Assembly (NCBI RefSeq): GCF_024204665.1
Contig: NZ_CP100355.1
Span: 62,001-126,000 of the forward strand
Origin: Natronosalvus rutilus
GTDB lineage: Archaea > Halobacteriota > Halobacteria > Halobacteriales > Natrialbaceae
Length of the DNA stretch: 64,000 bases
Direction: 5' to 3'
Positions 4,714 through 29,627 of this stretch are shown here, piece by piece (within the stretch, counting starts at the first letter, position 1; each line of letters opens with the position of its first letter). The translations under genes were made by a program, and so were the position numbers. Under the pieces are notes generated by a model. It saw nothing but the letters and a program-made list of their open reading frames with translations, was not told the origin of the DNA and made no database searches.

Positions 4714-5946
4714 ATGGATATCGCCGACATCGTTTCAGAAGACTACGTCGAATTCACCCCGGAAACGCCCGTTTCGAAGCTCGTCGGCACGTTCGCCGAT
4801 TCCAGCATCAAGGGCGTCGTGGTTCGCGACGAGGAATTCGAGGGCGTCGTCACCAGGAGACAACTCGCCACGTCCCACCGCCAGCCGAACGAGAAACTCG
4901 GGTCGCTGGTCTGGCACGTCCCGCGACTCGCACCCGAGGAGGACGTCCGCAAGGTGGCACAGCTCATGATCGACAGCGACTCGCAACTGCTCCCCGTGTT
5001 CGAGGGGCGGACGCTGGTCGGCGTCGTCACCGCCGACGAGATCATCGAAGCGGTCACGTCGTTTCTCGACGCGGCGACGGTCGCGGAGGCGTACTCCCCC
5101 GACCTCATCTCGCTCGATACAGCCTCGAGCCTCGGCGACGCGCTCCACGTCTTTCGCGAGAACCACATCACGCACCTCCCGGTCGTCGAGGACGGGACGG
5201 CAGTCGGGATCTGCAGCCTCTACGACGTGACCGAGCTCACGGTTCGGGCTGAGGTCCAGAGCAAGGGCGGCGACGCGGGCGGAACGGATCCCTTCGGCGG
5301 GGAGATTTCCGACAGCACCGGTCGCTCGCGCCGCGGCGGCTTCGGCGCCCGGGAAGGAGAACTCGCCAGGGTCCTGGACCTGCCGGTCCGCGACGTCATG
5401 ACCTCGCCCGTGCGAACGATTCGAGCCGGTGAGACGCTCGAGACGGCCGTCGGCGAGATGTTCGCGATCGGCGGCTCCTCGCTGGTCGTCACCGGAGACG
5501 GGTCACCGGACGGGATCGTGACGAAGACCGACGTCCTCGAGTCGCTCACGTGGGAGGCTGGCGGTAACCGGGCCGTACAGGTCTACGGGACCGACCTGCT
5601 CGAGGACGTCAGCTACGACGAGATCGTGTCGATGGTCGAAAAGTTCGACGGCAGGGATCACGGGATGAACGTCCTCGACGCGAAGGTCCACATCCACGAA
5701 CACGACGAGACGCGCCGCGGACGCCCGCTCCTACTCGCTCGCATCCGTCTGCACACGGATCGAGGACTGTACGTCGCCTCGGGAGAAGGGTACGGTGCGA
5801 AACACGCAATCAACGAGGCGCGAGACGTCCTGGAGCGCCAGATTCGCGACCGGAAGACCTACGGACGGACGAAAAAGCCGCCAGGCGAGGAGTTCTGGAC
5901 GAAACGTTTCGGCTGGCTGCTCGAGTCGTCGGCGACGGTTCGGTGA
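4714..5946 (+). CDS. CBS-domain protein with C-terminal HPF/S30AE-like domain
   Basis: About 410 residues starting MDIADIVSEDYVEF. Four CBS motifs are visible: about 1-60, 65-125 (SQLLPVFEGRTLVGVVTADE), 130-190 (HITHLPVVEDGTAVGI) and 230-290 (VRDVMTSPVRTI), so two Bateman modules that probably bind adenine nucleotides. The last 110 residues (AKVHIHEHDETRRGRPLLLA then GLYVASGEGYGAKHAINEAR and LERQIRDRK) have the alternating strand-helix pattern of the ribosome hibernation factor HPF/RaiA, by eye only. That would make it a nucleotide-sensing ribosome-binding factor. An in-frame ATG at 4627 would add 29 residues that look non-conserved; homologues as I remember them begin at MDI. Confidence 0.8.
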   Translation: MDIADIVSEDYVEFTPETPVSKLVGTFADSSIKGVVVRDEEFEGVVTRRQLATSHRQPNEKLGSLVWHVPRLAPEEDVRKVAQLMIDSDSQLLPVFEGRTLVGVVTADEIIEAVTSFLDAATVAEAYSPDLISLDTASSLGDALHVFRENHITHLPVVEDGTAVGICSLYDVTELTVRAEVQSKGGDAGGTDPFGGEISDSTGRSRRGGFGAREGELARVLDLPVRDVMTSPVRTIRAGETLETAVGEMFAIGGSSLVVTGDGSPDGIVTKTDVLESLTWEAGGNRAVQVYGTDLLEDVSYDEIVSMVEKFDGRDHGMNVLDAKVHIHEHDETRRGRPLLLARIRLHTDRGLYVASGEGYGAKHAINEARDVLERQIRDRKTYGRTKKPPGEEFWTKRFGWLLESSATVR

Positions 5947-16993: not shown

Positions 16994-18619
16994 TCAGAGC
17001 CCCTCGCGACCCCCCTGCGTGAGGAGCACGACCATCGAGAGGCCCGAGACGACGATCAGCATGAGCGCGGGGATGGCGGCGTACTGGAAGTAGGCGGCCT
17101 CCTGGGCCCGCCAGATCACGGTCACGAGGGTGTCGAAGCCGGTCGGACGCAAGAAGAGGGTCGCGGGCAGTTCCTTCATCGTCGTCAGGAAGACGAGCGC
17201 GGCCCCCGCGGTGATCCCCGGGGCGATGAGCGGGAGCGTCACCCGGCGGAACGACTTCAGGGGCGTGTCGCCGAGCGTCCGAGCGGCCTCGACGAGGGTC
17301 GGATCGACCTGCAGGGTCGTCGACCGAATCGAGCCGACCGCCTGCGGGAGAAACCGGATCACGTAGGCGAAGATCAGGAGTGGGAGCGTCTGGTACAGTG
17401 CCGGGGCGTACGGCAGGTCGAGCGCCTCGTAGTCCGTCCCAACGGATACGAGCGCGAGGCCGAGGACGACGCCGGGAACGGCGAAACCGACGTACGTCGC
17501 CCGCTCGAGCACCGAGACGAACGTGGCGTTGGACCTGGCCGCCAGGTAGGCGACCGGGATCGCGGCCGCGACGGCGACGAGCGCGGCGGCCCCCGAGACG
17601 AGAAGCGAGTTGTACGCGTACTCGAACTCGAAGGCCAGTTCGGGACGAGCGTAGGGGTCGGCGGTCACGAGCCACAGCCCCAGGATCCACAGCGGAACGA
17701 GCAGGGAGAGGGCCGTGACGCCGACGGGCAGGAGCGTCGCCGGCCAGCGCCAGCGGCCGAGTTCGACGACGGTCCTGGACCCGCCGTCGCCGCCGTCGCC
17801 GCGGACGGTGCGGTTCGAGCGGACCTTCCATTCGAGGGCGAGGACGACGAGGACGATGGCGAGCAACTGGAGCGAGAGGAAGGCCGCGTACTCCCGGTTC
17901 CACTGCTGGAATTCGACGTAAATCTGTCTCGTAAAGACGGGCAGTTGCATGATCGCGGGCGTCCCGAAATCCGAGACGGCGTACAGCGCGGCGAGCAGTG
18001 CGCCCGCGATTACGGCGGGTCGGATCTGGGGGAGCGTCACCCGGCGGAAGGCGCCCCAGGTATCGTGGTTGAGCGTCCGGGCGGCGTCCAGCAGTCGCGT
18101 GTCGAACGAGAGCAACGCCGCGCGGGTGGTGAGGTAGACGTAGGGGTACGTGTAGAGCGTGATGACGAGGATCGATCCCCAGAGGCCGTAGATTTCGGGT
18201 AATCGATCGATTCCGAGGGGCTCGAGGATCGATTGGAACTCGCCGCGGGGGCCGAAGGCGGACACGAACGCGAAGGCGCCGATGTAGCTGGGGACGACCA
18301 GCGGCAGGGCGACGGCGACGGCCCAGAAGCGCCGAAGCGGGAGGTCGGTCTGGACGGTGAGCCACGCCAGCGGGACGCCGACGAGAACCGAGCAGACGGT
18401 GACGCCGACCATCAACAGGAGGCTGTTGCCGACGATTTCGACCGTCTTGGGTCGCACGAGTAGACTCCAGGCGCGACCGCCGTCGATCCTGGTGGCTTCG
18501 ACCAGGAGCCACGAGAGCGGAAAGAGCAGGGTCGCCGCGATGGCCGCGACGAGGGCCGTCAACCCCAGCGGGAGCTCGTCGTTGGCTGTGATTCGGCGGA
18601 CGAACGACGGTCGTGACAT
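16994..18619 (-). CDS. Fe(III)-type ABC transporter permease (FbpB-like, fused)
   Basis: Integral membrane subunit of an ABC importer. About 12 hydrophobic segments form two related halves, each with a BPD_transp EAA-type loop: LDAARTLNHDTWGAFRRVTL with PQIRPAVIAG, and VEAARTLGDTPLKSFRRVTL with PLIAPGITAG. Fused double permeases of this kind belong to the FbpB/ThiP group for Fe(III) or thiamine. The operator at its promoter and the Fe-binding lipoprotein at 26069-27190 favour iron. The ATG at 18619 is chosen (541 residues); a GTG at 18676 is only 18 bases from the TATA element. No ATPase subunit is encoded in this window. Confidence 0.85.
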   Translation of the reverse strand: MSRPSFVRRITANDELPLGLTALVAAIAATLLFPLSWLLVEATRIDGGRAWSLLVRPKTVEIVGNSLLLMVGVTVCSVLVGVPLAWLTVQTDLPLRRFWAVAVALPLVVPSYIGAFAFVSAFGPRGEFQSILEPLGIDRLPEIYGLWGSILVITLYTYPYVYLTTRAALLSFDTRLLDAARTLNHDTWGAFRRVTLPQIRPAVIAGALLAALYAVSDFGTPAIMQLPVFTRQIYVEFQQWNREYAAFLSLQLLAIVLVVLALEWKVRSNRTVRGDGGDGGSRTVVELGRWRWPATLLPVGVTALSLLVPLWILGLWLVTADPYARPELAFEFEYAYNSLLVSGAAALVAVAAAIPVAYLAARSNATFVSVLERATYVGFAVPGVVLGLALVSVGTDYEALDLPYAPALYQTLPLLIFAYVIRFLPQAVGSIRSTTLQVDPTLVEAARTLGDTPLKSFRRVTLPLIAPGITAGAALVFLTTMKELPATLFLRPTGFDTLVTVIWRAQEAAYFQYAAIPALMLIVVSGLSMVVLLTQGGREGL

Positions 18620-18689: not shown

Positions 18690-18713
18690 AGTATAAGTTT
18701 TAGGTGTGCCTAA
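18690..18713. promoter_or_regulatory. Divergent promoter with metal-regulator (iron) box
   Basis: The TATA element GTATAAG at 18691-18697 is followed by TTAGGTGTGCCTAA at 18700-18713. This palindrome of TTAGG and CCTAA half-sites is the form bound by DtxR/IdeR-family metal repressors. On the plus strand it sits between TATA and the ATG at 18723 (leaderless). On the minus strand the same TATA reads CTTATAC and can serve the permease gene with a leader of about 45 bases. One operator may thus control both directions. Confidence 0.75.
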
Positions 18714-18722
18714 CTCGCGGTG

Positions 18723-19259
18723 ATGGACCTGACGCGACGGGACGCCGTGGCTGCCCTCGCGGCGCTCGGCGTCGGCGGGGGAGCCGCCGCGACCCTCCGG
18801 TACGGCCGCTCGAGGGCGGCGAAGGACACGACGTCCGTCGACGAAGAGCGCATCCGAGCGACGCTGATCGCCGCCGCCGAGGTCGTCTACCCCTCGGGAA
18901 TCGACGGCGTCGAGCCGTTCGTCGAGACCTTCCTGGAGGGGCGACTGGCCGACCCCGACCACGCGGCGGCGATGGACGAAACCGTCGCGAAACTCGAGGA
19001 GTTGTCCGAGTCGTGGCACGACGCTCGATTCGTCGCACTGTCGGTCGCGGACCGGGACCGGTTCCTCCGCGAACTCGGGGCGGACGCCGCCTCGGAAGCG
19101 CCGGAGGGCACGACCGCCGAGCGAGTTCGGTACTACGTCGTCAACGAGCTCCTGCTCGCGCTGTACACGTCGCCGACCGGCGGCGAACTGGCCGGTCTCG
19201 AGAACCCGCAGGGCCACCCGGGCGGAATCGACACCTATCAGCGGGGGCCCGACTCGTGA
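18723..19259 (+). CDS. Gluconate 2-dehydrogenase subunit 3-like, Tat-exported
   Basis: A 178-residue protein with a twin-arginine signal (LTRRDAVAALAALGVGGGAA), so it is exported folded. The rest matches the small subunit of membrane-bound sugar dehydrogenases (DUF5027/gluconate 2-dehydrogenase subunit 3 group): RATLIAAAEVVYPSGIDGVE, FVETFLEGRLADPD, and the C-terminal YTSPTGGELAGLENPQGHPG. In such enzymes the small subunit assists export of the GMC flavoprotein; here that partner is the next gene, 25 bases downstream. Start at the ATG 18723, 29 bases after the TATA element and directly behind the iron box. Confidence 0.8.
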   Translation: MDLTRRDAVAALAALGVGGGAAATLRYGRSRAAKDTTSVDEERIRATLIAAAEVVYPSGIDGVEPFVETFLEGRLADPDHAAAMDETVAKLEELSESWHDARFVALSVADRDRFLRELGADAASEAPEGTTAERVRYYVVNELLLALYTSPTGGELAGLENPQGHPGGIDTYQRGPDS

Positions 19260-19284
19260 GTTTCTCCAAACGGAGGTCCGAGCC

Positions 19285-20916
19285 GTGAGCTGGAGCCGAC
19301 CACCCGCGGAGGCGACGAACGAGTCGGTCGAATCCGAGGATCGAACCCCGGTAGCGGGGGCGAACGTGTGCGTGATCGGATCCGGGCCCGCCGGCAGTAT
19401 CGTCGCGACGCGACTCGCGGAGGCGGGTCACGAGGTGGTGATCCTCGAGGCTGGGCCTCGATTCGATCCGGCCGATCGGTTAGCCAGGCAGGAACGTGCG
19501 ATCCGGCCCGCCTACGACCGGCCTGACGTCTGGGACGGCGACCCCGAACGCGACGCCCACGCTGCTTCCGGAGAGTGGTTCTATCCCCTGAATCACGCCC
19601 GCGTCAGGGGCGTCGGCGGTTCGACGCTCCACTGGCAGGGGATGGTCATGCGCCTCCACGAGGACGACTTCAATTCGGCGAGCGTCCGCGGGGTCGGCGT
19701 CGACTGGCCGATCGACTACGCCAACTTCCGGCCGTACTACGCCGACGCCGAGCGAGAAATTGGGGTCTCGGGCGCCGACAATCCCTTCGGGCCGCCCCGG
19801 GAGGAACCCCACCCGATGCCGGCGTTTCCGCCCTCCTACAGCGATAGCCTGTTCGCCCAGGCCTGCGACGCTCTCGAGATCGCGATGCACCCGGTCCCGA
19901 ACGCCCGGAACTCCGAAGCCTACGACGGTCGCGGCGGCTGCGTCGGCTACGGCACCTGCCAGCCCGTCTGCCCCTCCGGCGCGAAGTACGACGCCACCGT
20001 CCACGTCGAGAGCGCAGAGGCCGCTGGGGCGACGGTGCTCGACCGGGTTCCGGTCACGCGCCTCGAGCACGGCCCCGACGCGGTCAGGGCGGCGATCTAC
20101 GCGACCCCGGACGGCGACACGTACCGCCAGGCGGCCGACGCCTTCGTCGTCGCCTGCGGAGGCGTCGAGACGCCACGATTGTTGCTGGTGTCGGAATCCG
20201 ACCACTACCCTGACGGCCTCGCGAACTCGAGCGGCCTCGTCGGGCGATACTTCATGGATCACCTCTTCGCCGGGATGGGCGGCGTCCTCGAGGAGCCGAC
20301 CCGACAGAACCACGTCGGCTTCCTCACCAGCGAGTGCCACCAGTTCTACGACGAGGCCGACGAGGAGATTGCGCCGTTCAAACTCGAGTTCTTCAACTAC
20401 GCCGGTCCCTCCCCAGTGGAACTGGCGCTCACCGGCGACGACTGGGGCGACGCCCTCCTCGAGCACCTCCGGGCAGAGTACGGCGCCCACGTTGGCGTCG
20501 GCGCGCTCGTCGAACAACTCCCCCGCGAGGACAGTTACGTCGGTCTCGACCCCGAGCGAACGGACGCCAACGGCGTGCCGATCCCGGACGTCCACTGGAA
20601 CGTCGGCGAGCGAGCGCTGCGAACCATCGAGCGGGTCAACGAGATCCAGCGATCGATCCTCGAGGAACTGGGCGCCGAGATCACCTGGCAGGTCGGACCG
20701 GAGAACACCGGACCTGCCTACCACCACATGGGGACGACCCGAATGGGTGATGATCCATCCGCAAGCGTCGTCGATTCCGACCTCCGAACGCACGACCTGG
20801 ACAATTGCTGGCTCGTCTCGAGTTCAGTCTTTCCCACCGGCGGTGCGATGAATCCGACGTTGACTATCGCCGCGCTAGCTCTGCGTGCGGCCGAAGCGAT
20901 CGAGGACGCCCTCTAG
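19285..20916 (+). CDS. GMC-family FAD-dependent oxidoreductase
   Basis: Flavoprotein dehydrogenase of 543 residues resembling the large subunit of gluconate, fructose or glucoside 3-dehydrogenases. The FAD-binding motif VIGSGPAGSIVATRLAEAG is at about residues 31-49 with ILEAGPRF. GVGGSTLHWQGMVMRL, GRGGCVGYGTCQPVCPSGAK (a Cys-rich loop) and the C-terminal YHHMGTTRMGDDP and GGAMNPTLTIAALALRAA are typical. It has no signal of its own and would be co-exported with the Tat subunit encoded just upstream. The GTG start has GGAGGT seven bases before it. The oxidised sugar is unknown. Confidence 0.88.
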   Translation: MSWSRPPAEATNESVESEDRTPVAGANVCVIGSGPAGSIVATRLAEAGHEVVILEAGPRFDPADRLARQERAIRPAYDRPDVWDGDPERDAHAASGEWFYPLNHARVRGVGGSTLHWQGMVMRLHEDDFNSASVRGVGVDWPIDYANFRPYYADAEREIGVSGADNPFGPPREEPHPMPAFPPSYSDSLFAQACDALEIAMHPVPNARNSEAYDGRGGCVGYGTCQPVCPSGAKYDATVHVESAEAAGATVLDRVPVTRLEHGPDAVRAAIYATPDGDTYRQAADAFVVACGGVETPRLLLVSESDHYPDGLANSSGLVGRYFMDHLFAGMGGVLEEPTRQNHVGFLTSECHQFYDEADEEIAPFKLEFFNYAGPSPVELALTGDDWGDALLEHLRAEYGAHVGVGALVEQLPREDSYVGLDPERTDANGVPIPDVHWNVGERALRTIERVNEIQRSILEELGAEITWQVGPENTGPAYHHMGTTRMGDDPSASVVDSDLRTHDLDNCWLVSSSVFPTGGAMNPTLTIAALALRAAEAIEDAL

Positions 20917-20932
20917 TGCTCGGTCGGCGGTG

Positions 20933-20956
20933 TTTTAGGCAAACCTAAAACTTAAG
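20933..20956 (+). promoter_or_regulatory. Iron-type operator and TATA of the GT2 gene
   Basis: TTTTAGGCAAACCTAAAA at 20933-20950 is a near-perfect palindrome of the same type as the other four boxes. It runs into the AT-rich TATA region AAAACTTAAG, which ends 25 bases before the ATG at 20981. A bound repressor would cover the BRE and TATA region. Confidence 0.75.
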
Positions 20957-20980
20957 TGCTGGTCGGAGAAAGTACCGGTA

Positions 20981-21838
20981 ATGAGCGTAGAAACGCCTGC
21001 AGACGGCGACGAACTCGAGGCCGACGCCGAGACCTCGAATCGACGCGCGAAATCGGTCGGTCCTGGCGCCGTTACGGACTCCAGCAACGGCCCGACGCGA
21101 GAGGCCACCGACGGGAGCAGCGCCGACGAGTACACCTTCGACGACCTCGCGGTCGTGATGGGTACGTACAACGAGGAGGCGGCCATCGGAACCGTCCTCG
21201 CTGACATCGAGCACGTGACCGACGGTCGCGCCGAGGTCGTCTGCGTCGACGGTTCGTCGGATCGAACGCCTGACATCGCGCGCGAACACGGCGCGACGGT
21301 GATCGAACAGGAGCCTCAGGGTTACGGCGTCGCCGTCCACGCCGCCATCACGGCGCCCGAGCGCCCGGTGATCGTCACCACCGACTGCGACGACACCTAC
21401 CCGATGGATCAGTTACCGGAGTTCCTCGAGTTGATCAACCGCGGTCACGACGTTGTCAGCGGTGACCGCCTCTACCACGGCGCCGAGGCGATGCCGGCGC
21501 TCAACCGACTCGGCAATCACGCCTTCGCGGCCCTCGCCAGCGTCCTGATGGGTACGCGCGTCCACGACACCACCACCGGCATGCGTGCCTACCGTCGCGA
21601 GGTCATCGAGGACGTCGAGTGGTCCGAGAACACCGGCCTCTCGGCCGAACTCCTGATCCGTCCGCTGATGCGCGGCTACGACGTAGTCGAACACCCCATC
21701 GCCTACGCCGAGCGCGCGGGCGAGACCAAACTGGATCCCATCCAGGGCGGCTACGAGATCGCGCGATCCATCGGCAAGGTCGCCTTCGAGGAGCGCATGC
21801 GAGAGTTGCCACACGAGCCGCGACAGCACGATCGATAG
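20981..21838 (+). CDS. Dolichyl-phosphate sugar synthase-like glycosyltransferase (GT2)
   Basis: Non-processive GT2 enzyme of the DPM1/AglJ kind that loads a sugar onto polyprenyl phosphate. After an acidic leader of about 60 residues come VVMGTYNEEAAIGTVLADIE, VVCVDGSSDRTPDIAREHGA, the metal-binding IVTTDCDDTYPMDQLPEFLE, and SGDRLYHGAEAMPALNRLGN with TTGMRAYRREVIEDVEWSEN. It lacks C-terminal membrane helices. The iron box at 20933 is its promoter, so lipid-linked sugar synthesis seems metal-regulated here. Donor and role are not determined. Confidence 0.85.
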   Translation: MSVETPADGDELEADAETSNRRAKSVGPGAVTDSSNGPTREATDGSSADEYTFDDLAVVMGTYNEEAAIGTVLADIEHVTDGRAEVVCVDGSSDRTPDIAREHGATVIEQEPQGYGVAVHAAITAPERPVIVTTDCDDTYPMDQLPEFLELINRGHDVVSGDRLYHGAEAMPALNRLGNHAFAALASVLMGTRVHDTTTGMRAYRREVIEDVEWSENTGLSAELLIRPLMRGYDVVEHPIAYAERAGETKLDPIQGGYEIARSIGKVAFEERMRELPHEPRQHDR

Positions 21839-22515
21839 ACGGGCATCGACTACATCGGAGTACTACATTTCGACACTATTCGTCGTCGCTCTTCAGAAAC
21901 AGCGTGCTGGTGAGCGCTGCCACTGGAACGGTCGCGGGCGAAGGTATTGATACGGCGACTACGTCTATGCTCCAACCCCGTGTGTTTCGTTCGGAGGAGA
22001 GCGCCGCGAGGGGCCTAGCGATCAACTGCGAGCGGGTTTCGATAATCCGGCCCCTCGAGAGACGGTCTCGTTCTGTCATTTTCAACCAGCGAAACAGTGC
22101 AGAGTACCGTATCGCCACCGTTGACCGCACGGGAGCATCCCAGCGAAACGCGATTCAACACAGTACCGACCACTGAACGCCGAGGAGAGCGGAAACTCGT
22201 CCGCTGGGTCTCTCGTTCGATTCGAATCGTCTGCTGACGTATGTTTATTCGACTCGAATTCAAGATACGGACGATTTCGTTTCTCTCAATAGTTGCCACC
22301 GTGCAATTCTCGCCTGCTGAAAGACTTCGCTTGGTCGATGCGGCTAGTAGAGACTATGCTCAGCAGGGAATAGTCGCCAAATTCCCAGACGTTTATAAGG
22401 GTGTCCGCAGTCTTGCGTTTAGAGTATTGGTAAATAAAGGGGTATACTTCAGGGTAACGTATGGTATGGAGTTCCCTCTACAACCGATAATTCCGTACGC
22501 CATGACGAGACACCC
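21839..22515. other. AT-richer gap with gene remnants
   Basis: About 680 bases without a convincing gene. GC is visibly lower than in the neighbours and codon bias is absent from all frames. It starts with an inverted-repeat copy (21889-21939) and later contains AT-rich promoter-like tracts: GTTTATAAGG near 22391, TTGGTAAATAAAGG near 22430 and GGTATACTTC near 22441. A frame at 22241-22771 (176 codons) has no recognisable domain and overlaps the next gene. Confidence 0.5.
21889..21939 (-). repeat. Inverted repeat, left copy; remnant of a membrane-protein tail
   Basis: Contains CAGCGTGCTGGTGAG, and the surrounding 51 bases match the reverse complement of 23791-23843 at roughly four positions in five with one 2-base indel. 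On the minus strand this copy reads PATVPVAALTSTLFLKSD before a stop codon at 21876, like the end of a membrane protein. The two copies bracket the sulfatase-like gene. Confidence 0.65.
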
Positions 22516-22680
22516 ATGGATCGATCATCGAAACCGGTCGGGGCACCTCGAGAATCGACACCGACATCACATGGCGATGATACGACGCTTTTCTACCAGC
22601 GCACACCGCCGTACAGGGACACGGGTCACGCGTTCAAACGTCCGAAGCCAGCAAGCACACAGGGGGCCGAACCAGGATGA
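22516..22680 (+). CDS. Possible short ORF (54 aa) before the sulfatase-like gene
   Basis: ATG to TGA encodes MDRSSKPVGAPRESTPTSHG, DDTTLFYQRTPPYRDTGHAF and KRPKPASTQGAEPG. It is basic and Pro-rich with no hydrophobic segment and no known family. Its TGA overlaps the ATG of the next small frame (ATGA). Codon choice is not clearly haloarchaeal. It may be a real coupled peptide or chance. Confidence 0.25.
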   Translation: MDRSSKPVGAPRESTPTSHGDDTTLFYQRTPPYRDTGHAFKRPKPASTQGAEPG

Positions 22681-22781
22681 ACGAGACCAATTGGTCGCAC
22701 ACCAGGAATACGCCGGAAAGACGATCGGCGACGATCACTGGGCGGGCAACGGAGACGGGCGCACCGCATGAGGGAACTTAG
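22677..22781 (+). CDS. Possible short ORF (34 aa) overlapping the sulfatase start
   Basis: Begins MNETNWSHTRNTPERRS within the ATGA overlap at 22677 and ends 14 bases inside the next gene. No family is recognised. If translated, it would couple the frame at 22516 to the sulfatase-like gene at 22768; otherwise it is noise. Confidence 0.2.
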   Translation: MNETNWSHTRNTPERRSATITGRATETGAPHEGT

Positions 22782-23778
22782 CGTCCACTCCTGGATCGAC
22801 CGAGCGAAGCGAAACTGGAAGTCGGACAAGAAGCGAGCGGTCCTGGAGGCGGCTTACTGTCTGTATCTTGGGCCATGGTTCACGGCGACGTCTCGACGTC
22901 CCATAGGGACGAACGTGTACGACCTCGAGTGGGACGCACTCATCATTCTGGATGCGTGCAGAGTAGATGCACTTCGGTACCTCGCTCCCGAATACGACTT
23001 TCTGGACGCGAGGAGCATCGAGTCGATACTGTCCGTGGGAAGTGGTTCCCGGGAGTGGCTGGTCAAGACGTTCAACGAAGACCGTCTCGAGGACGTCCAG
23101 GAAACCGCACTCGTGACGGCCAATGGCTTCGACCGGGATGTCTTCATGAACGGCCGATACCTCCCGGGGATTGCCGTCCCGTTCTGCTGGCCGGGTGCAG
23201 AGCCGGTCACGGAACACGACTTCCTCCGATACGATCCGGTGTGGCGCGACTGTCGAGACGAACGGCTGGATACGGTTCCCCCAGAAGCGACGACGAACCG
23301 AGCCATCCTGGCCGGACGAGAAGCCGATGCCGACCGACTCGTCGTCCACTACGCGCAGCCACACACGCCCTACATTGCCGATGCAGTAATGGACGGTGGG
23401 AGAGAGTTGACAGACATCGAGCAGAGTGCGTGGGGAGCGCTCAAGCAAGGTTCAGTGCCGAACGAAGTGGTGTGGCGAATGTATCTCAACAACCTTCGCC
23501 ACGCGCTCGATTCGGTCGGAGTGCTCCTCGAGAACCTCGATGCGGAGACAGTCGTACTATCGGCCGATCACGGCGAGGCATTCGGCGAGTGGGGAATCCA
23601 GGGGCACCCAACCGGCCTTCCGCACCCACACGTGAAACGAGTTCCGTGGGCGACGACGACTGCGACCGACTACGAATCAGTCGCGACTGACGATATTGCG
23701 AGTCCAGCGGCGAATCCCACGGAAGACGATGGGACCGTCGAGGAACATCTGGAGGCGCTCGGGTACGGGAAGTTTTAA
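22768..23778 (+). CDS. Sulfatase-like alkaline-phosphatase-superfamily protein
   Basis: A 336-residue protein of a haloarchaeal group found in surface-polysaccharide clusters. Motifs: LEAAYCLYLGPWF, TNVYDLEWDALIILDACRVD (metal Asp in LDACR), GSGSREWLVKTF, RLVVHYAQPHTPYI, VVLSADHGEAFGEWG (metal Asp-His) and the tail TVEEHLEALGYGKF. The fold is that of sulfatases and phosphoglycerol transferases, but no formylglycine CxPxR motif is seen, so a sulfatase reaction is not certain. No signal peptide is seen. Codon usage is less GC-rich than in flanking genes, and inverted-repeat remnants surround it, suggesting later arrival. Confidence 0.8.
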   Translation: MRELSVHSWIDRAKRNWKSDKKRAVLEAAYCLYLGPWFTATSRRPIGTNVYDLEWDALIILDACRVDALRYLAPEYDFLDARSIESILSVGSGSREWLVKTFNEDRLEDVQETALVTANGFDRDVFMNGRYLPGIAVPFCWPGAEPVTEHDFLRYDPVWRDCRDERLDTVPPEATTNRAILAGREADADRLVVHYAQPHTPYIADAVMDGGRELTDIEQSAWGALKQGSVPNEVVWRMYLNNLRHALDSVGVLLENLDAETVVLSADHGEAFGEWGIQGHPTGLPHPHVKRVPWATTTATDYESVATDDIASPAANPTEDDGTVEEHLEALGYGKF

Positions 23779-23790
23779 CACATCACCGTT

Positions 23791-23843
23791 GTCCGTTATC
23801 GTCCCAGTGACAGCGCTCTCACCAGCACGCTGCTTGTGAAGAA
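23791..23843 (+). repeat. Inverted repeat, right copy
   Basis: Reverse-complement partner of 21889-21939, sharing CTCACCAGCACGCTG exactly. It carries two extra bases that put it out of frame with the left copy: IVPVTAL reads in one frame and ALTSTLLVKN in another. It lies between the stop of the sulfatase-like gene and the stop of the convergent GT-C gene. Confidence 0.65.
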
Positions 23844-23852
23844 CGTTCGTCG

Positions 23853-26060
23853 TTAATCCGCAGTCACTTCGAGTTCCGCCTCGAGGCGTTCCCACTCGGG
23901 CAGGTCAGCGTCCTCGAGCAACGTCCCCTCCCGACCGCAGTCGGTGACGAGCCGACAGCCTCGCGTTTCGGGCGGCCAGACGACCTCGAGCGCGCCGTCT
24001 TCGACCCGAACCGTGGTCTCCTGGCGGTAGGTGTACGTACCGCCGTCGGGCTGGACGAGCGTGACCGAGAGGACGACCCGGTCGCTGGCCGCGAGTTCGA
24101 TCCCCTCTTCGGTCGGCGTGCGAGTCGCCGCCGACGGCGCCGACAGGGTAGCAGTACCGGCGTCGTCGCTCGCGGCCGCCAACGTCCAGGCGACGCTGAT
24201 CTCGTCGGTCGGGTCCTCCAGGTGGTACTCGACGGAGCCGTTCGCCCCCTCGAGGGTGACGACGGCGCGGCTGACCCGGTCAGGGACGCCGACTGTCGTC
24301 TCGCCGTCCATCGTCGAACCCCGGCGGACCTCGAGTGGCTGGAAAACGGCCTCGATCTGGTCGGGGCTCGCACCCCACGCGCCGCGGTAGGTGTACCGGT
24401 AGGGATGGCGGTCGGGATAGGCGTCCAAAGCGGTGAACTCTCTCTCGGGGTCGCCCTCCAGGACGTAGACGACGTCGCCCTCGAGGTCGGGGTCGTTCCT
24501 GAGCGCCTGGAAGGGATGGTTGGTCCACTGGCCGTAGGGCGCGGGCTGGAAGACGAGGGCGTTCTCGAGGTCGCGATCGTCGAACGGTTCGTAGGCCGCC
24601 TCGGCACTCCGGGTGTAGTCGGCGTTGCGATCGATCGGTCCCGAGACGAGCGCGACGGTGGTCGTCGCGAGGACGAGCGTCGCCACCAGGGCGAGGGAAA
24701 TGAGGACCCTGCGAGACGAAACCGGCGCGTCGATTCGCTCGAGGAGTTCGGGGACGCGATGCCGAGCGAGACGCCACCCGGACACCATCGCGATGGCGGC
24801 GAAGATGGCGAACGGAGCGAGCAGGTCGAAGTGATAGAAGGGGCCGAACCGACTGACGAGGCCGTTCGTCGGGTCGTCCATCGTCGCCAAGATGTTAAAA
24901 TTGCCCCAGAAGGCGACGTTGCCCAGGACGACGGTGACGACGACGCCCGCGAGAAGTGCGGCGGGCAGCGGAGAGACGGCGACCAGGCAACCCTGGGATC
25001 GCGATCCGGTCCGGCGCCCCTCAAGCCACTGCCGACCCGCCAGTGCGAGTCCCGCGACCGCCGCCAGGGTGCCAATCGGCCCGGCGACGACCCAACGGGT
25101 GGCGGAGTACCACAGGACGTAGCCGTTGGCCTCGAGCGCCAGCGCGGGCGTGTACTCGAGGCCGTGGCCCACGATCTCACGATAGCCGAACCCGGGTCCG
25201 TCTAGCGGCGCGAACGCCTGGAACGGAAACTCGAGGGGCGAACCGGTCAGTCGAGCGTTGTACGCGAGCGCGAGGGCGACGAACGCGAGGCCGATCGTCC
25301 CTGTGAGCAGATTTCGGCGGACGGGGTCGGCCAGCGGGCGGCCCCGTCGGAGAGTGGTTACCGTCTGCCAGCCGGCGTGGACGACGAACGGCAGGGCGAA
25401 CAGGACGGCGGTGTACGGCCGGGCGAAGAACGCGATGCCGACGGCGACCCCGGCGACGGCGGCCATCCTCGAGTCGCTGGAGCGGACGCCCCGGAGGTAG
25501 CAGACGGCGAAGAGGAGATTCCACAGCGTCGTCGGGGCGTAAGGGAGGAAGACGGACGAAGAGAGGAGCGCCATCGGTGAGGCCGCGAAGAGGACGGACG
25601 AGACGAGGCCGACTCGTCGGTCGGCGACCGTCGAGCCGAGGACGTAGATCAGGTAGGCGTTGAGCGCCGCCACGATCGCCAGCGTGACCCGGGGCTCGCC
25701 GAACAGGGCCATCGAAACGGCGAACATTCCGGCGGGGACGGGCGCGTACTTCGGATACAGCCGGCCATCCTCGAGGACGAAGAACCACGGTCTGACGGCC
25801 TCGGCGAGGGCGCCCGCGTGAATCTGGAACTGGCCCTCGAGCAACATCGCGGCCTGCAGCAGGTAGACCGCCTCGTCGTCGTTGCTCGAGTGGTACGGGA
25901 ACAACTCGCTCGCGAGGGTGAAGACGACGAGGCCGGCGAGGACGCTCACGAGGAGCGCGTAGCGGCGCTCGCGCGGGCGGGTGGCGGCCCGGAGAACGGA
26001 ACGAACGGAGCGACGCGAGGGGAGGTGGCTTCGGAATCGGTGCCGGCGGGGATCGACCAT
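23853..26060 (-). CDS. GT-C type membrane glycosyltransferase (ArnT/PMT-like)
   Basis: A 735-residue protein with about ten N-terminal membrane helices (residues 35-480) and a soluble, probably extracytoplasmic, C-terminal domain of about 230 residues with beta-rich sequence. The first loop has PYHSSNDDEAVYLLQAAMLL, the acidic motif of GT39/GT83 enzymes that use polyprenyl-phosphate sugars, followed by YPKYAPVPAGMFAVSMALFG. The likely role is sugar transfer to a lipid or protein outside the membrane. It starts 8 bases after the Fe-binding lipoprotein gene on the same strand and should share its iron-boxed promoter. Confidence 0.75.
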   Translation of the reverse strand: MVDPRRHRFRSHLPSRRSVRSVLRAATRPRERRYALLVSVLAGLVVFTLASELFPYHSSNDDEAVYLLQAAMLLEGQFQIHAGALAEAVRPWFFVLEDGRLYPKYAPVPAGMFAVSMALFGEPRVTLAIVAALNAYLIYVLGSTVADRRVGLVSSVLFAASPMALLSSSVFLPYAPTTLWNLLFAVCYLRGVRSSDSRMAAVAGVAVGIAFFARPYTAVLFALPFVVHAGWQTVTTLRRGRPLADPVRRNLLTGTIGLAFVALALAYNARLTGSPLEFPFQAFAPLDGPGFGYREIVGHGLEYTPALALEANGYVLWYSATRWVVAGPIGTLAAVAGLALAGRQWLEGRRTGSRSQGCLVAVSPLPAALLAGVVVTVVLGNVAFWGNFNILATMDDPTNGLVSRFGPFYHFDLLAPFAIFAAIAMVSGWRLARHRVPELLERIDAPVSSRRVLISLALVATLVLATTTVALVSGPIDRNADYTRSAEAAYEPFDDRDLENALVFQPAPYGQWTNHPFQALRNDPDLEGDVVYVLEGDPEREFTALDAYPDRHPYRYTYRGAWGASPDQIEAVFQPLEVRRGSTMDGETTVGVPDRVSRAVVTLEGANGSVEYHLEDPTDEISVAWTLAAASDDAGTATLSAPSAATRTPTEEGIELAASDRVVLSVTLVQPDGGTYTYRQETTVRVEDGALEVVWPPETRGCRLVTDCGREGTLLEDADLPEWERLEAELEVTAD

Positions 26061-26068
26061 CGCCCTCG

Positions 26069-27190
26069 TCAGGTGTTGATGCCGACCTCGCGCATGAGGT
26101 CGATCGTCGGCTCGAGGTCCGAGAGCTGCGAGAGGTCGACGTTCGGCACGTCGAGTTCGTCGATGGGCGGCAGGTCGCCGACCGGTTCGACGTCCGGGAT
26201 CAACGGGTACTCGTAGGTCTCCGTGGCGAAGTACTCCTGGGCCTGCGCCGAGAGCAGGTGACGGACGAAGTTCTGGGCGAGGTCGGCGTCGTCGGCCGCG
26301 TCTGTGACGGCCGCACCGGCGACGTCGAAGACGGCGCCCGCGTCACCCTCGGTGAACGACGTGGCGATTGGGGCGTCCGGCGAGCCGTCCAGCACGCGCT
26401 GGATGTAGTAGTGGTTCGTGAACCCGGCGTCGATTTCGCCGTCGGCGACGGCCTGGCAGACCGCGAACTCGTCGCTGTACTCCGCGATTCCCGAATCGAC
26501 GATGCCCTCGAGCCACTCGCGGGTCGTCTCCTCGCCCTCGAGCAGTCGCATGGCGGTCACGAAGCCCTGGCAGGAGCCGTAAGAGGGAGCCCAGCCCAGG
26601 TCGCCGTCGAAGTCGGTCGCGTAAGCCTGGATGCTGTCGAGCATGTCCTCGTTCGAGAGCGAGTCGGTGTTGAAGGGGACGGTCCGGGCCCGGCCCGAGG
26701 TGCCGACCCACTGGTCGGTTCGAAACTCTTCGTCAACCATTGAGGTGGCCTCCTCGGACAGCGCCTGCGTTCGTCCCTCCTCGGCGAGCGCACCGAGGGC
26801 CGCCGCGTCGACGGTGTAGAACACGTCGGCGGGGGTTCCCGAGCCTTCTTCGGCGATTTGGTTGACCAGTTCCGAGGAGTTGCCGTACCGCGGATCGACC
26901 GTGAAGTCCTCGTAGTAGTCCTCGAGGTCGCCGAGCAGCGTGCCGACGAGGAACTCGCCGCGCCCGGAGTAGACGGTCAGTTCGCCCTCGAGGTCCGGAA
27001 GGTCCTCGACGCGAGTCCCGCCCGGTTCGGGGCGTCCGGCTCGCCCGGAGCCGATCTGTCCAAACGTGTTCGGTGCGTCGTCGTCATCGCTTCCGATCAG
27101 GCCGAGACAGCCAGCGACGCTCACGGTACCGAGCGCGGCCGAACCAGCCAGAAAGGTGCGCCGAGAAGGTGAATCTGATCGTCGGGGCAT
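26069..27190 (-). CDS. Fe(III)-type ABC substrate-binding lipoprotein (FbpA-like)
   Basis: Exported solute receptor of 373 residues. It has a Tat motif SRRTFLAGSAALGTV and lipobox VAGCLG at about residue 28. The mature part is a type 2 periplasmic-binding fold: GELTVYSGRGEFLVGTLLGD, YGNSSELVNQIAEEGSGTPA, DVFYTVDAAALGALAEEG and FTNHYYIQRVLDGSPD, where the Tyr pair corresponds to the iron-binding tyrosines of FbpA. The likely partner permease is encoded at 16994-18619, 8 kb away. The ATG at 27190 is 25 bases from a TATA element, with an iron box in between. Confidence 0.88.
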   Translation of the reverse strand: MPRRSDSPSRRTFLAGSAALGTVSVAGCLGLIGSDDDDAPNTFGQIGSGRAGRPEPGGTRVEDLPDLEGELTVYSGRGEFLVGTLLGDLEDYYEDFTVDPRYGNSSELVNQIAEEGSGTPADVFYTVDAAALGALAEEGRTQALSEEATSMVDEEFRTDQWVGTSGRARTVPFNTDSLSNEDMLDSIQAYATDFDGDLGWAPSYGSCQGFVTAMRLLEGEETTREWLEGIVDSGIAEYSDEFAVCQAVADGEIDAGFTNHYYIQRVLDGSPDAPIATSFTEGDAGAVFDVAGAAVTDAADDADLAQNFVRHLLSAQAQEYFATETYEYPLIPDVEPVGDLPPIDELDVPNVDLSQLSDLEPTIDLMREVGINT

Positions 27191-27193
27191 GTT

Positions 27194-27220
27194 TTTAGGT
27201 TCACCTAAATATATTTATAA
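27194..27220 (-). promoter_or_regulatory. Iron-type operator between TATA and start of the Fe-binding lipoprotein gene
   Basis: TTTAGGTTCACCTAAA at 27194-27209 is a palindrome with TTTAGGT and ACCTAAA arms. On the minus strand it follows TTATAAATAT at 27210-27219 and ends four bases before the ATG. A repressor here would block transcription start on a leaderless message. Confidence 0.8.
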
Positions 27221-27240
27221 GCGTCGATGTTTGTCGGACG

Positions 27241-28425
27241 TCAGTGGCGGACGGCTTCGACACGGGTCGCCGCAGTCGATCCCTCGAGACGCTCGAGGCA
27301 CGCGAGCCACTCGAGCATGTACTCGCCCACGTGATTGAAGAACGCGCCGTTGGTATACTCGTCCCAGTCGCCCTCGGCGAGCGCCCGGCCCATCGCCTCG
27401 AACACACCGGCGTAGCTCTCGCGGTCGCCGCCGACGTCGTCGACGATCGCCCAGAGGTGTTCGTTGAGCTCGAGGCCCGGCACTTCGTTGTTCAGATCGT
27501 CGAACGTGCTTCGCGGCGCCTTGTTGTGTTCACACAGCGGGTTCCCGTTGTAGATCTGTGTTTCGAGGACGTCGCAGGCGCGCTTGAGGAAGACGCCGCT
27601 CCAGATGTCGTCGAAGCGCCCGACGTTCCACTCGTTGTCGTCCATCGGCAACTGGTAGAACGCGGGGACGACCTCCCGGCGGAACGCGAGGTTCATCGAA
27701 CAGACCGTCAGGTACTGCCCCGGTTCGGCGACGAAGTCTCCCGCGAAGTCCTCGCGCGTCGTCCGCGTCTGTGCCTGTCCCTCGAGGTCGCCGTCCATCA
27801 GGATCCGGACGGCGTCGAGGTCGGGGACGTTGGTCCACAGCCCCTGGGAGGCGACCACGTCGCCGGTCTCGAGGGTCGCCGTCCCAGTCTCGACGGTCTC
27901 GTCCATCGCGGCGTAGGGGTACCCCCGTGGGTAGAGGCCGTGCTCCTCAGCGTTCTGGTAGAGGACGTTGACCCACTGCTCGTCGGAGCGAACGGTCTCG
28001 ATCTCGCCCTCGAAGGCGAGGTTCGCCAGATGGGTGCCGAAGAAGTCCACGTCCGGGTGCGGGATCGTGTCGTCGTCGATGAAGACGCCGTACTCGAAGC
28101 GGTCGTGGGCCCATAGGTAGAGCAGTCCGAAACTCGTCTCGGCGTGGCTGGCCGCCGGCACGAGGTGGCCGTACTCGGCGATTCCGTTCGCTTCGTACCA
28201 CTCGTCGCGACGGGTGCCGTCGAATACCTCGCCCGAGACGCCCCCCTCCTCGAGCATCGCCGTCATGGAGTCGGTGTCACAGAAGTCCTCGGTAACGAGC
28301 ACGACGTGCAGGCGCTCGAGGTCGAAGTCGTGATCGCGCGCGTTTTGGAGGTAGGAACGCACGCACTCGTACTCGCGGATCGTCGGGACGACGACGCAGA
28401 TGTCCTGGATCGCGTGCTGACTCAT
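27241..28425 (-). CDS. RGP-family glycosyltransferase (alpha-1,4-glucan-protein synthase-like)
   Basis: A 394-residue soluble protein of the reversibly glycosylated polypeptide family, related to plant UDP-arabinopyranose mutase. Visible: DICVVVPTIREYECVRSYLQ, HVVLVTEDFCDTDSM, FEYGVFIDDDTIPHPDVDFF (the DDD metal/nucleotide site) and NLAFRREVVPAFYQLPMDDN with WNVGRFDDIWSGVFLKRACD. It probably binds a nucleotide sugar and either interconverts ring forms or transfers the sugar. Its own iron box lies 12 bases upstream of the ATG. The next gene upstream on this strand ends 40 bases away. Confidence 0.82.
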   Translation of the reverse strand: MSQHAIQDICVVVPTIREYECVRSYLQNARDHDFDLERLHVVLVTEDFCDTDSMTAMLEEGGVSGEVFDGTRRDEWYEANGIAEYGHLVPAASHAETSFGLLYLWAHDRFEYGVFIDDDTIPHPDVDFFGTHLANLAFEGEIETVRSDEQWVNVLYQNAEEHGLYPRGYPYAAMDETVETGTATLETGDVVASQGLWTNVPDLDAVRILMDGDLEGQAQTRTTREDFAGDFVAEPGQYLTVCSMNLAFRREVVPAFYQLPMDDNEWNVGRFDDIWSGVFLKRACDVLETQIYNGNPLCEHNKAPRSTFDDLNNEVPGLELNEHLWAIVDDVGGDRESYAGVFEAMGRALAEGDWDEYTNGAFFNHVGEYMLEWLACLERLEGSTAATRVEAVRH

Positions 28426-28437
28426 TGAGCGTTCGTT

Positions 28438-28455
28438 TTTTAGGCTAGCCTAAAA
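28438..28455 (-). promoter_or_regulatory. Perfect iron-type palindrome before the RGP gene
   Basis: TTTTAGGCTAGCCTAAAA is an 18-base perfect palindrome, the best of the five boxes in the region. It fills most of the 40-base gap between the AglD-like gene and the RGP gene. No clear TATA is seen apart from the AT arms, so it may act as operator and promoter together. Confidence 0.8.
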
Positions 28456-28465
28456 CAGTACCGGT

Positions 28466-29587
28466 TCACTCCGGGCGCTCGTCGGCGAGTCCCGAAACCG
28501 TCAGCCCGAGGGCCCCGGCGCTCAGACCGCCACCGACGAGGGTGAGGCCGTTTTTCAGCGCGTGGTCGACGAGTGCCGCAGCCAGCGCCGTACTGGCACC
28601 GATTGGGGTGATCGACACGACGAGGGCCGTGAATGCGGCCTCGTACAGCCCGACGCCACCCTGTGAGAGCGGTAACACCTTCGCCAGGTTGCCGACGCTC
28701 ACTGCGAGCGTCCCGACGGCCAGCAAGGGGAGCACGTCGAGACCGGTTCCGAACGCCGCGAGCACGAGTACGGCGGTCACCACGTCGAGCGACCAGATCG
28801 CCAGGCTCGTCGTCGCGACGGCCGCGAGGGAGCGGGGCCGTCGGGTGATCGCCTGGAGGTGGCCGACGAACCGGAATCCGGCCTCGAGTCGATCCCCCCA
28901 GGTGTGCGAACGCAGTCGTGCGCCGAGACCGGCGGGGGAGCCGTAGCGAGTGGAGGCCGCCAGCACGACCCCGACGCCGACGGTGGCGGTGCTGACGGCG
29001 CACGCGGCCAGCACGGCACGTCGAGCGCCGCCGGTGGTGAACACCTCGAGCGGGGACGCGGTCCCGCTGAGCGCGAGCCAGGCGGTCGCCCCGAGTGCAA
29101 GGGCGGTGATCGTCGCCAGATCGAAGAGGCGTTCGACGACCAGCGACGCGCCGCCGGTGGGGTAGGGAACGCCCCACCGGTTCTTGATAATGTATGCACG
29201 TGCGCCATCGCCAGCCCGCGCAGGGAGCACGAGATTCGCCAGTTGACTCACGAAGATTGCGGCGGTCAGCGGCGCGGTTCCAACGCGGTAGTACATCGTT
29301 CCCAGCACGTCGCCGTAGCGTCGCCCGCGAAGCGGCCACGAGAGGAGGTAGACCGCGACGGCCCCCGCCAGCAGTTGGCGATCGGCGCGGGCGACCTCCG
29401 CGAGGACCGTCTCGAGTTCGATCGATCGAAACGCGACGAGTAGGCCGAGAACGATGCCGATCGCGACGACGAACGGTCCGAATCGCCGGAGGCCGGCCTC
29501 GAGCGAGCGCCCCCGTCTCCCGTCGGCCGACGCCGTCCGGCGAGAGCGTGTCGTCGAATCGTCCTCGAGTCGGTCCCGCCCGTTCAT
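28466..29587 (-). CDS. AglD/MprF-like membrane protein (UPF0104, LPG synthase TM family)
   Basis: A 373-residue protein with about eight membrane helices of the lysylphosphatidylglycerol-synthase transmembrane family. Motifs: PLRGRRYGDVLGTMYYRVGT, QLANLVLPARAGDGARAYII, GGASLVVERLFDLATI and LPLSQGGVGLYEAAFTALVV. In haloarchaea relatives occur in glycan assembly (AglD, AglR types) and are proposed to act on lipid-linked sugars or as flippases. An iron box overlaps its TATA. It heads a minus-strand series with the RGP and Fe-binding genes, each with its own box. Confidence 0.82.
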   Translation of the reverse strand: MNGRDRLEDDSTTRSRRTASADGRRGRSLEAGLRRFGPFVVAIGIVLGLLVAFRSIELETVLAEVARADRQLLAGAVAVYLLSWPLRGRRYGDVLGTMYYRVGTAPLTAAIFVSQLANLVLPARAGDGARAYIIKNRWGVPYPTGGASLVVERLFDLATITALALGATAWLALSGTASPLEVFTTGGARRAVLAACAVSTATVGVGVVLAASTRYGSPAGLGARLRSHTWGDRLEAGFRFVGHLQAITRRPRSLAAVATTSLAIWSLDVVTAVLVLAAFGTGLDVLPLLAVGTLAVSVGNLAKVLPLSQGGVGLYEAAFTALVVSITPIGASTALAAALVDHALKNGLTLVGGGLSAGALGLTVSGLADERPE

Positions 29588-29608
29588 ACGAACTCGTGCA
29601 GGACCCAG

Positions 29609-29627
29609 ATATTTAAGCTCACCTAAA
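29609..29627 (-). promoter_or_regulatory. Imperfect iron-type operator overlapping TATA of the AglD-like gene
   Basis: TTTAAGCTCACCTAAA at 29612-29627 keeps one full half-site (ACCTAAA) and a degenerate second one. On the minus strand the TATA-like TTAAATAT, 22-29 bases before the ATG at 29587, overlaps it, so binding would block promoter recognition. Confidence 0.6.

Follow-up and report, generated by a model that had tools for sequence, protein, structure and literature searches.

Do the palindromes of the form TTAGG-N4-CCTAA that stand before iron-uptake and glycan genes of the haloarchaeon Natronosalvus rutilus mark a single regulon? The question is raised by a 64-kb stretch of its genome (contig NZ_CP100355.1, positions 62,001 to 126,000; hereafter the window), in which five such boxes had been proposed from the letters alone – the sequence-only reading. 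They precede genes for an ATP-binding cassette (ABC) permease (fbpB), a ferric-ion-binding lipoprotein (FbpA), a sugar-dehydrogenase pair (gdh3 and a GMC-family gene), a GT2 glycosyltransferase, an RGP-family (GT75) protein and a flippase. Operators of the DtxR type and iron regulons are known in haloarchaea, and earlier work on DtxR-family iron regulons there is reportedly that of Leyn and Rodionov (2015), Schmid (2011) and Martinez Pastor (2024). We propose that the five boxes are in all likelihood operators of a metal-dependent repressor of the DtxR family that jointly controls Fe(III) import and the export of a furanose-containing glycan.

Boxes in the Window

A pattern search of the window yields four exact boxes (TTAGGNNNNCCTAA) and one with a single mismatch (TTAAGCTCACCTAA). 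All five palindromes first noticed are present, one of them as an imperfect copy, although their coordinates had been off by 0–2 nt (Table 1). The chance expectation for the four exact sites is 0.00 (100 shuffles). When a scoring matrix was built from the orthologous promoters of other species, with the window's own sites excluded, the five boxes scored 20–38 and ranked first; the next non-overlapping place scored −6.4, and the maximum in 20 random 64-kb sequences was 3.1. The statement that no further box lies in the window holds.

Each palindrome had been placed within a promoter, and each does have a start codon within about 100 nt. The boxes overlap or touch TATA-like elements and start codons, which fits repression. 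At the box shared by the divergent fbpB and gdh3 genes, the TATA-like GAGTATAAG comes before the box on the plus strand, and TTATACTC comes after it on the minus strand; in the imperfect box, the changed half-site runs into the flippase gene's TATA-like CTTAAATAT. A sigma-70 promoter scan was set aside as uninformative for an archaeon.

Conservation Across Haloarchaea

Using the RGP protein as query, we collected 80 haloarchaeal loci (1.55 Mb in total), in which 277 exact boxes occur and no copy with any other spacer length (0–8 tested); in the same loci 29 permuted half-site palindromes, used as a control, average 0.10. Allowing up to one mismatch, a box is found before the RGP gene in 79 of the 80 loci, before 54 of 55 GT2 orthologs, before the sugar-dehydrogenase pair (gdh3) in 49 of 50 loci and before the flippase in 52 of 53, as well as before 73 of 78 FbpA orthologs and before fbpB in 37 of 65 loci. 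Because the N-terminus of the window GT2 is longer than those of its orthologs, its upstream test was counted from aligned starts. None of the GMC, GT-C (PMT), epimerase and thermosome genes of the 80 loci has a box upstream. In two of the loci with a boxless FbpA the gap between RGP and FbpA is 6 and 68 nt, which is consistent with shared transcription.

Sequence identity is concentrated in the boxes, at 96–100% per promoter in the half-sites, 53–86% in the spacers and 43–59% in the flanks. The closest relative retains all five boxes, with changes at 0 of 50 half-site positions versus 6 of 20 spacer positions (p = 3e-4). In Natrinema, Natronococcus, Halopiger, Halobiforma and other genera the imperfect box of the flippase gene reappears as TTAGGTGRGCTTAA, in most cases joined to the TATA-like CTTAAATAT, and so is better seen as a constrained variant than as a decayed site. 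The sequence-only reading had asked for the boxes in close relatives and for the same pairing of box and gene in related genomes, and both are borne out. Conservation shows the same predicted operator before the ferric ABC importer, the dehydrogenase pair, the putative GT75 mutase, the predicted dolichyl-phosphate (DolP) hexose transferase and the flippase across haloarchaea, and the association of box and gene is strongly supported as a conserved one in more than 100 genomes.

Table 1. Boxes and associated genes of the window, with predicted functions (coordinates are those of the window)
Feature	Coordinates	Strand	Evidence and context
FbpB-type double-domain ABC permease (fbpB)	16994..18619	-	two BPD_transp_1 domains, PF00528 3e-29, two stretches
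Exact box TTAGGTGTGCCTAA	18700..18713	.	intergenic, divergent fbpB (-) / gdh3-GMC (+)
Small subunit of sugar dehydrogenase with twin-arginine translocation (Tat) signal (Gluconate_2-dh3), gdh3	18720..19259	+	PF13618 6.9e-10
GMC-family sugar dehydrogenase	19285..20916	+	PDB flavin adenine dinucleotide (FAD) glucose dehydrogenase 1e-85, fructose dehydrogenase 1e-78; no own box
Exact box TTAGGCAAACCTAA	20935..20948	.	immediately 5' of TATA-like AAACTTAAG, GT2 gene
GT2 DolP-hexose transferase	20981..21838	+	NF041391 401.9 bits (cut-off 375); PF00535
GT-C membrane glycosyltransferase	23853..26060	-	PF25230 7.8e-43, PMT_2 1.9e-5; no own box
Ferric-ion-binding lipoprotein, FbpA type	26069..27190	-	PDB FbpA-type matches, best 1.8e-55
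Exact box TTAGGTTCACCTAA	27195..27208	.	flanked by TTATAAATA and ATG of ferric-binding-protein gene
RGP gene, GT75 nucleoside-diphosphate (NDP) pyranose mutase (furanose donor)	27241..28425	-	PDB MtdL 1e-21
Exact box TTAGGCTAGCCTAA	28440..28453	.	upstream of RGP gene
Stand-alone LPG_synthase_TM/TIGR00374 flippase	28466..29587	-	PF03706 1.5e-39, TIGR00374
Imperfect box, minus-strand reading TTAGGTGAGCTTAA	29613..29626	.	upstream of flippase gene

Linkage and Loss of the Glycan Genes

A second comparison used one genome per genus of the order, for 30 genera, some of which may overlap with the 80 loci. In 28 of the 30 a box precedes RGP and FbpA adjoins it; in the two unboxed genera (L150 and L160), as in the likewise unboxed Actinarchaeum (L100), the stretch retrieved contains no FbpA. 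Haloferax and Halobium have a boxed GT2 ortholog despite its distance of 77–104 kb from the iron genes or its place on a different contig; the fused AglD-type genes of these genera have no box.

These arrangements bear on the view that true control is confined to the iron genes, the glycan genes being boxed as neighbours through shared promoters or hitch-hiking. Glycan genes do usually cluster with fbp genes, and a single box, such as that at 18700, is able to serve divergent genes; however, RGP and GT2 have boxes of their own near their own starts, kept while the spacers drift, the unlinked GT2 is boxed all the same, and the adjoining epimerase and thermosome genes are not. We regard such hitch-hiking as highly improbable.

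RGP was found in 306 of 391 genomes of the order (70 of 87 genera). The GT2 ortholog is present in none of 16 RGP-negative genomes versus all eight RGP-positive genomes compared (p = 1.4e-6, without correction for shared ancestry). A diverged FbpA (36–48% identity) occurs in 14 of the 16 RGP-negative genomes and is mostly boxed there; the box therefore tracks Fbp-type iron import generally, and the glycan module is optional and gained or lost as a whole. Five genomes of the same genus (G089, G094, G282, G285 and G306) lack both RGP and the GT2 ortholog, so that the module varies within a genus.

Joint control could also hold with a glycan module that plays no part in iron uptake, with low iron acting as a cue – for biofilm formation, adhesion or a change of envelope, for example – and the importer merely co-regulated. 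Actinarchaeum has RGP and GT2 grouped with GT-C, and both Fbp genes and boxes are missing from the vicinity, an argument for a role of the glycan that is independent of iron; L150 has RGP beside GT-C, likewise unboxed, and boxed Fbp importers occur without glycan genes in RGP-negative genomes. FbpA nevertheless adjoins RGP in nearly all of the 30 genera, and GT-C follows the fbp genes in an operon-like manner, an arrangement tighter than a shared cue requires. We take this version of joint control seriously, and give it a little less than even credence.

Boxes Elsewhere in the Genome

The whole genome (4.31 Mb) contains 11 exact boxes, versus two occurrences of the reversed pattern; genome-wide counts are from pattern searches, the matrix having been applied to the window. 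One or two of the 11 could be due to chance, the cluster of four in 10 kb not. Most of the seven exact boxes beyond the window precede iron-uptake genes or the gene of an FbpC-like ATPase. The genes boxed there encode two FhuD-type binding proteins (one with FecCD), the FbpC-like ATPase, a ferredoxin (L023), a methyltransferase (L024) and a homolog of IF-2B (L027). A relaxed pattern, TTWGGNNNNCYWAA, gave 15 sites in the whole genome versus 17–20 in the reversed control, which it did not surpass, and added little beyond the exact and the conserved imperfect sites. The central idea of an operator common to iron and glycan genes is strongly supported, and the proposed regulon is to be corrected to one wider than the window, with FhuD, FhuD-FecCD, the FbpC-like ATPase and ferredoxin as predicted members.

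Tandem boxes are seen at two of these places: 36 nt apart upstream of an FhuD-type protein (L022, positions 4982 and 5018), and 26 nt apart upstream of the IF-2B homolog (L027, positions 5040 and 5066), where the second is imperfect. Paired boxes are likewise present upstream of FbpA in RGP-negative genomes (L177–L187).

Genes of the Proposed Regulon

The Fe(III) permease and the iron-binding lipoprotein of the sequence-only reading hold up on domain and structural matches (Table 1). The NHYY motif of the lipoprotein, with its Tyr-Tyr iron ligands, is invariant in 74 of 74 sequences, and the PDB matches listed for it are mostly ferric-binding proteins. The best PDB match of the FbpC-like ATPase is an iron ABC ATPase, and our best guess is that it is the ATPase of this ferric importer. 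Its gene (L026, 3817–5001) lies about 3.1 Mb from the other importer genes and has an exact box of its own at position 5019.

The RGP-family gene, the only one found in the genome, had been taken for a transferase, but is best read as a putative GT75 NDP-pyranose mutase. In addition to the PDB match to MtdL, the predicted fold of its product gives a template-modelling (TM) score of 0.73–0.79 with MtdL (a structure model), and nine of ten key MtdL positions are identical in 79 of 79 RGP sequences, the tenth, Gln229, being Met. No match to an FAD-dependent mutase of the GLF type was found in this genome or in that of Haloferax volcanii, and a GT75 (PF03214) gene is present in both; GT75 is the likely furanose-donor enzyme of haloarchaea.

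The polyprenyl-phosphate glycosyltransferase is recovered as the GT2 gene, which exceeds the NF041391 cut-off and matches DolP-mannose synthase in the PDB (1.6e-11). Its place with RGP and the flippase among the boxed glycan genes stands, and a fourth glycan gene, GT-C, had been missed; this has no box of its own, lies 8 nt downstream of the ferric-binding-protein gene and apparently shares its operon, and hence the regulon. A GT-C model (predicted local distance difference test 84) has structural matches that include AglB, ArnT, ALG9 and the arabinosyltransferases EmbA/B/C.

The gene described as AglD-like has the flippase half of that description: its product is homologous to the C-terminal domain of AglD and has the PF03706 domain only, the N-terminal glycosyltransferase domain of AglD being absent. 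Its best matches in other genera are long fused open reading frames (ORFs). The flippase half of AglD is a separate boxed gene in the loci of Natrialbales and Halorubrum (L032–L111), and is part of fused AglD-type genes in other genera (L129–L135). The comparison suggests that AglD may have been split and re-used; Natrinema gelatinilyticum gave no close fused match. HVO_1859 (UPF0104) rises 11.6-fold in iron-starved Haloferax (PMC11349517) but was rejected as support for the flippase gene, since in two Haloferax genomes the window flippase is best matched by long fused ORFs of the AglD type, which leaves HVO_1859 as only a family member.

The pair read as a Tat-exported sugar dehydrogenase keeps that assignment, and three 3Fe-4S-type cysteines of the GMC protein (C219, C225 and C229) are invariant in 45 of 45 sequences. 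The gdh3 gene has an alternative ATG at 18723 and encodes the N-terminus MDLTRRDAVAALAALG. The dehydrogenase is predicted to need a 3Fe-4S cluster, which is odd for a boxed enzyme if it is meant for low iron.

Between the GT2 and GT-C genes lies an ORF (22768–23778, plus strand) with no Pfam match and a weak match to a hydrolase family. It is present in the closest relative and absent from the other 80 loci, as a lineage-specific insertion into the cluster.

Regulator and Metal

Three strong homologs of the DtxR family, with DNA-binding and dimerisation domains, are encoded in the genome. An Fe-type metal site (Met10 and Cys102 of DtxR/IdeR) was looked for in the two best and longest (L028 and L029) and was not found, Asp being at both positions, so that metal specificity is not readable from the sequence. 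Manganese, or several metals, might accordingly be the signal for the boxes in place of iron: the Asp residues bring the two homologs nearer to MntR/SloR-type sites, and GT75 enzymes are themselves Mn/Mg dependent, needing a divalent cation such as Mn (PMC9937993). The boxed transporters, however, are of ferric and siderophore types (FbpA with its invariant NHYY, FhuD and FecCD). In Haloferax volcanii, moreover, a ferR signal is predicted for the fhu operons, several products of which increase under iron starvation, and Idr, SirR and TroR, all of the DtxR family, have been connected with iron homeostasis (PMC11349517); because haloarchaeal DtxR proteins are so reported, the Asp residues do not decide the metal. 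We consider manganese, alone or with other metals, unlikely.

A Model for Joint Control

We favour a model in which a DtxR-family repressor, given enough metal (probably iron), would cover the core promoters, and in which all boxed promoters would open when iron is scarce. To judge from their families, GT75 would make an NDP-furanose, GT2 would load a sugar onto dolichyl phosphate, the flippase would turn the lipid-linked sugar outward, and GT-C, apparently co-transcribed with FbpA, would transfer it to a surface acceptor. The regulon would then cover every stage of a complete route, from the furanose donor through lipid-sugar synthesis and flipping to extracellular transfer, although that these steps form a single pathway is inferred from families and linkage. 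At low iron, surface glycans would be remodelled together with Fe(III) uptake.

Several findings weigh against this model. The case for the glycan genes working together is built on linkage, co-loss and family membership; both leading DtxR homologs carry the Asp residues described above; GT75 is changed at two MtdL substrate-contact sites (Q229 to M and D87 to H); boxes in the same genome precede the ferredoxin, methyltransferase and IF-2B genes, which have no obvious role in iron uptake; and a separate close homolog of the flippase was found only in Natrinema among eight genomes tested. The interpretation first offered for the locus is, overall, partly supported.

A more specific version, which we think rather unlikely, is that a furanose-containing glycan built under iron limitation holds iron at the surface and hands it to the adjacent FbpA, as a glycan counterpart of a siderophore. 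As part of this same doubtful version, the exported GMC dehydrogenase might oxidise the glycan or free sugars to sugar acids, or its electrons might reduce Fe(III).

Joint control, if true, would tie nutrient sensing to the cell envelope through a metal-responsive control of archaeal surface-glycan synthesis that most of a large group retains; the claim is directly testable in Haloferax volcanii, a genetically tractable species. No description of GT75 or DolP glycan genes as iron-controlled was found in the literature covered, outside which the main haloarchaeal regulon papers lie.

Comparison with Known Systems

The importer resembles the FbpABC/HitABC systems in its FbpA similarity with a Tyr-Tyr pair, its double-domain permease and its FbpC-like ATPase, and differs in the separately boxed units and distant ATPase gene of this species; in other genera the genes for the permease, FbpA and a glycosyltransferase form a single run. 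The dehydrogenase pair fits the FAD sugar dehydrogenases (glucose and fructose dehydrogenases) by its GMC similarity, its cysteines and its predicted Tat-exported small subunit.

With the GT75 mutases MtdL, Hyg20 and plant UAM/RGP, the RGP protein shares invariant equivalents of DDD, the glycosylated Arg, Ser228, Arg257, Asp260 and His287 (PMC9937993). Unlike MtdL it is archaeal, is about 23% identical, and has Met for Gln229 and His for Asp87. The AglD and DolP-sugar systems of Haloferax, together with ArnC/ArnT and Emb, offer a DolP-charging GT2, an AglD-type flippase domain and a GT-C fold that uses lipid-linked sugars; in contrast to AglD of Haloferax, glycosyltransferase and flippase are here separate and both boxed, the fused AglD-type genes of other genera being unboxed. 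AepG, the DolP-glucuronosyltransferase of Haloarcula hispanica, is alike by description in being a GT2 that loads DolP for a non-S-layer glycan, but has two C-terminal membrane helices, and iron control is not reported in that description.

The closest parallel to the boxes themselves lies in the haloarchaeal DtxR-family regulons (FerR, TroR, Idr and SirR), in which predicted operators precede siderophore and iron transport genes (prior work cited in PMC11349517). The regulon proposed here differs in that it would also take in a GT75 mutase, a DolP transferase, a flippase, a GT-C transferase and an exported sugar dehydrogenase.

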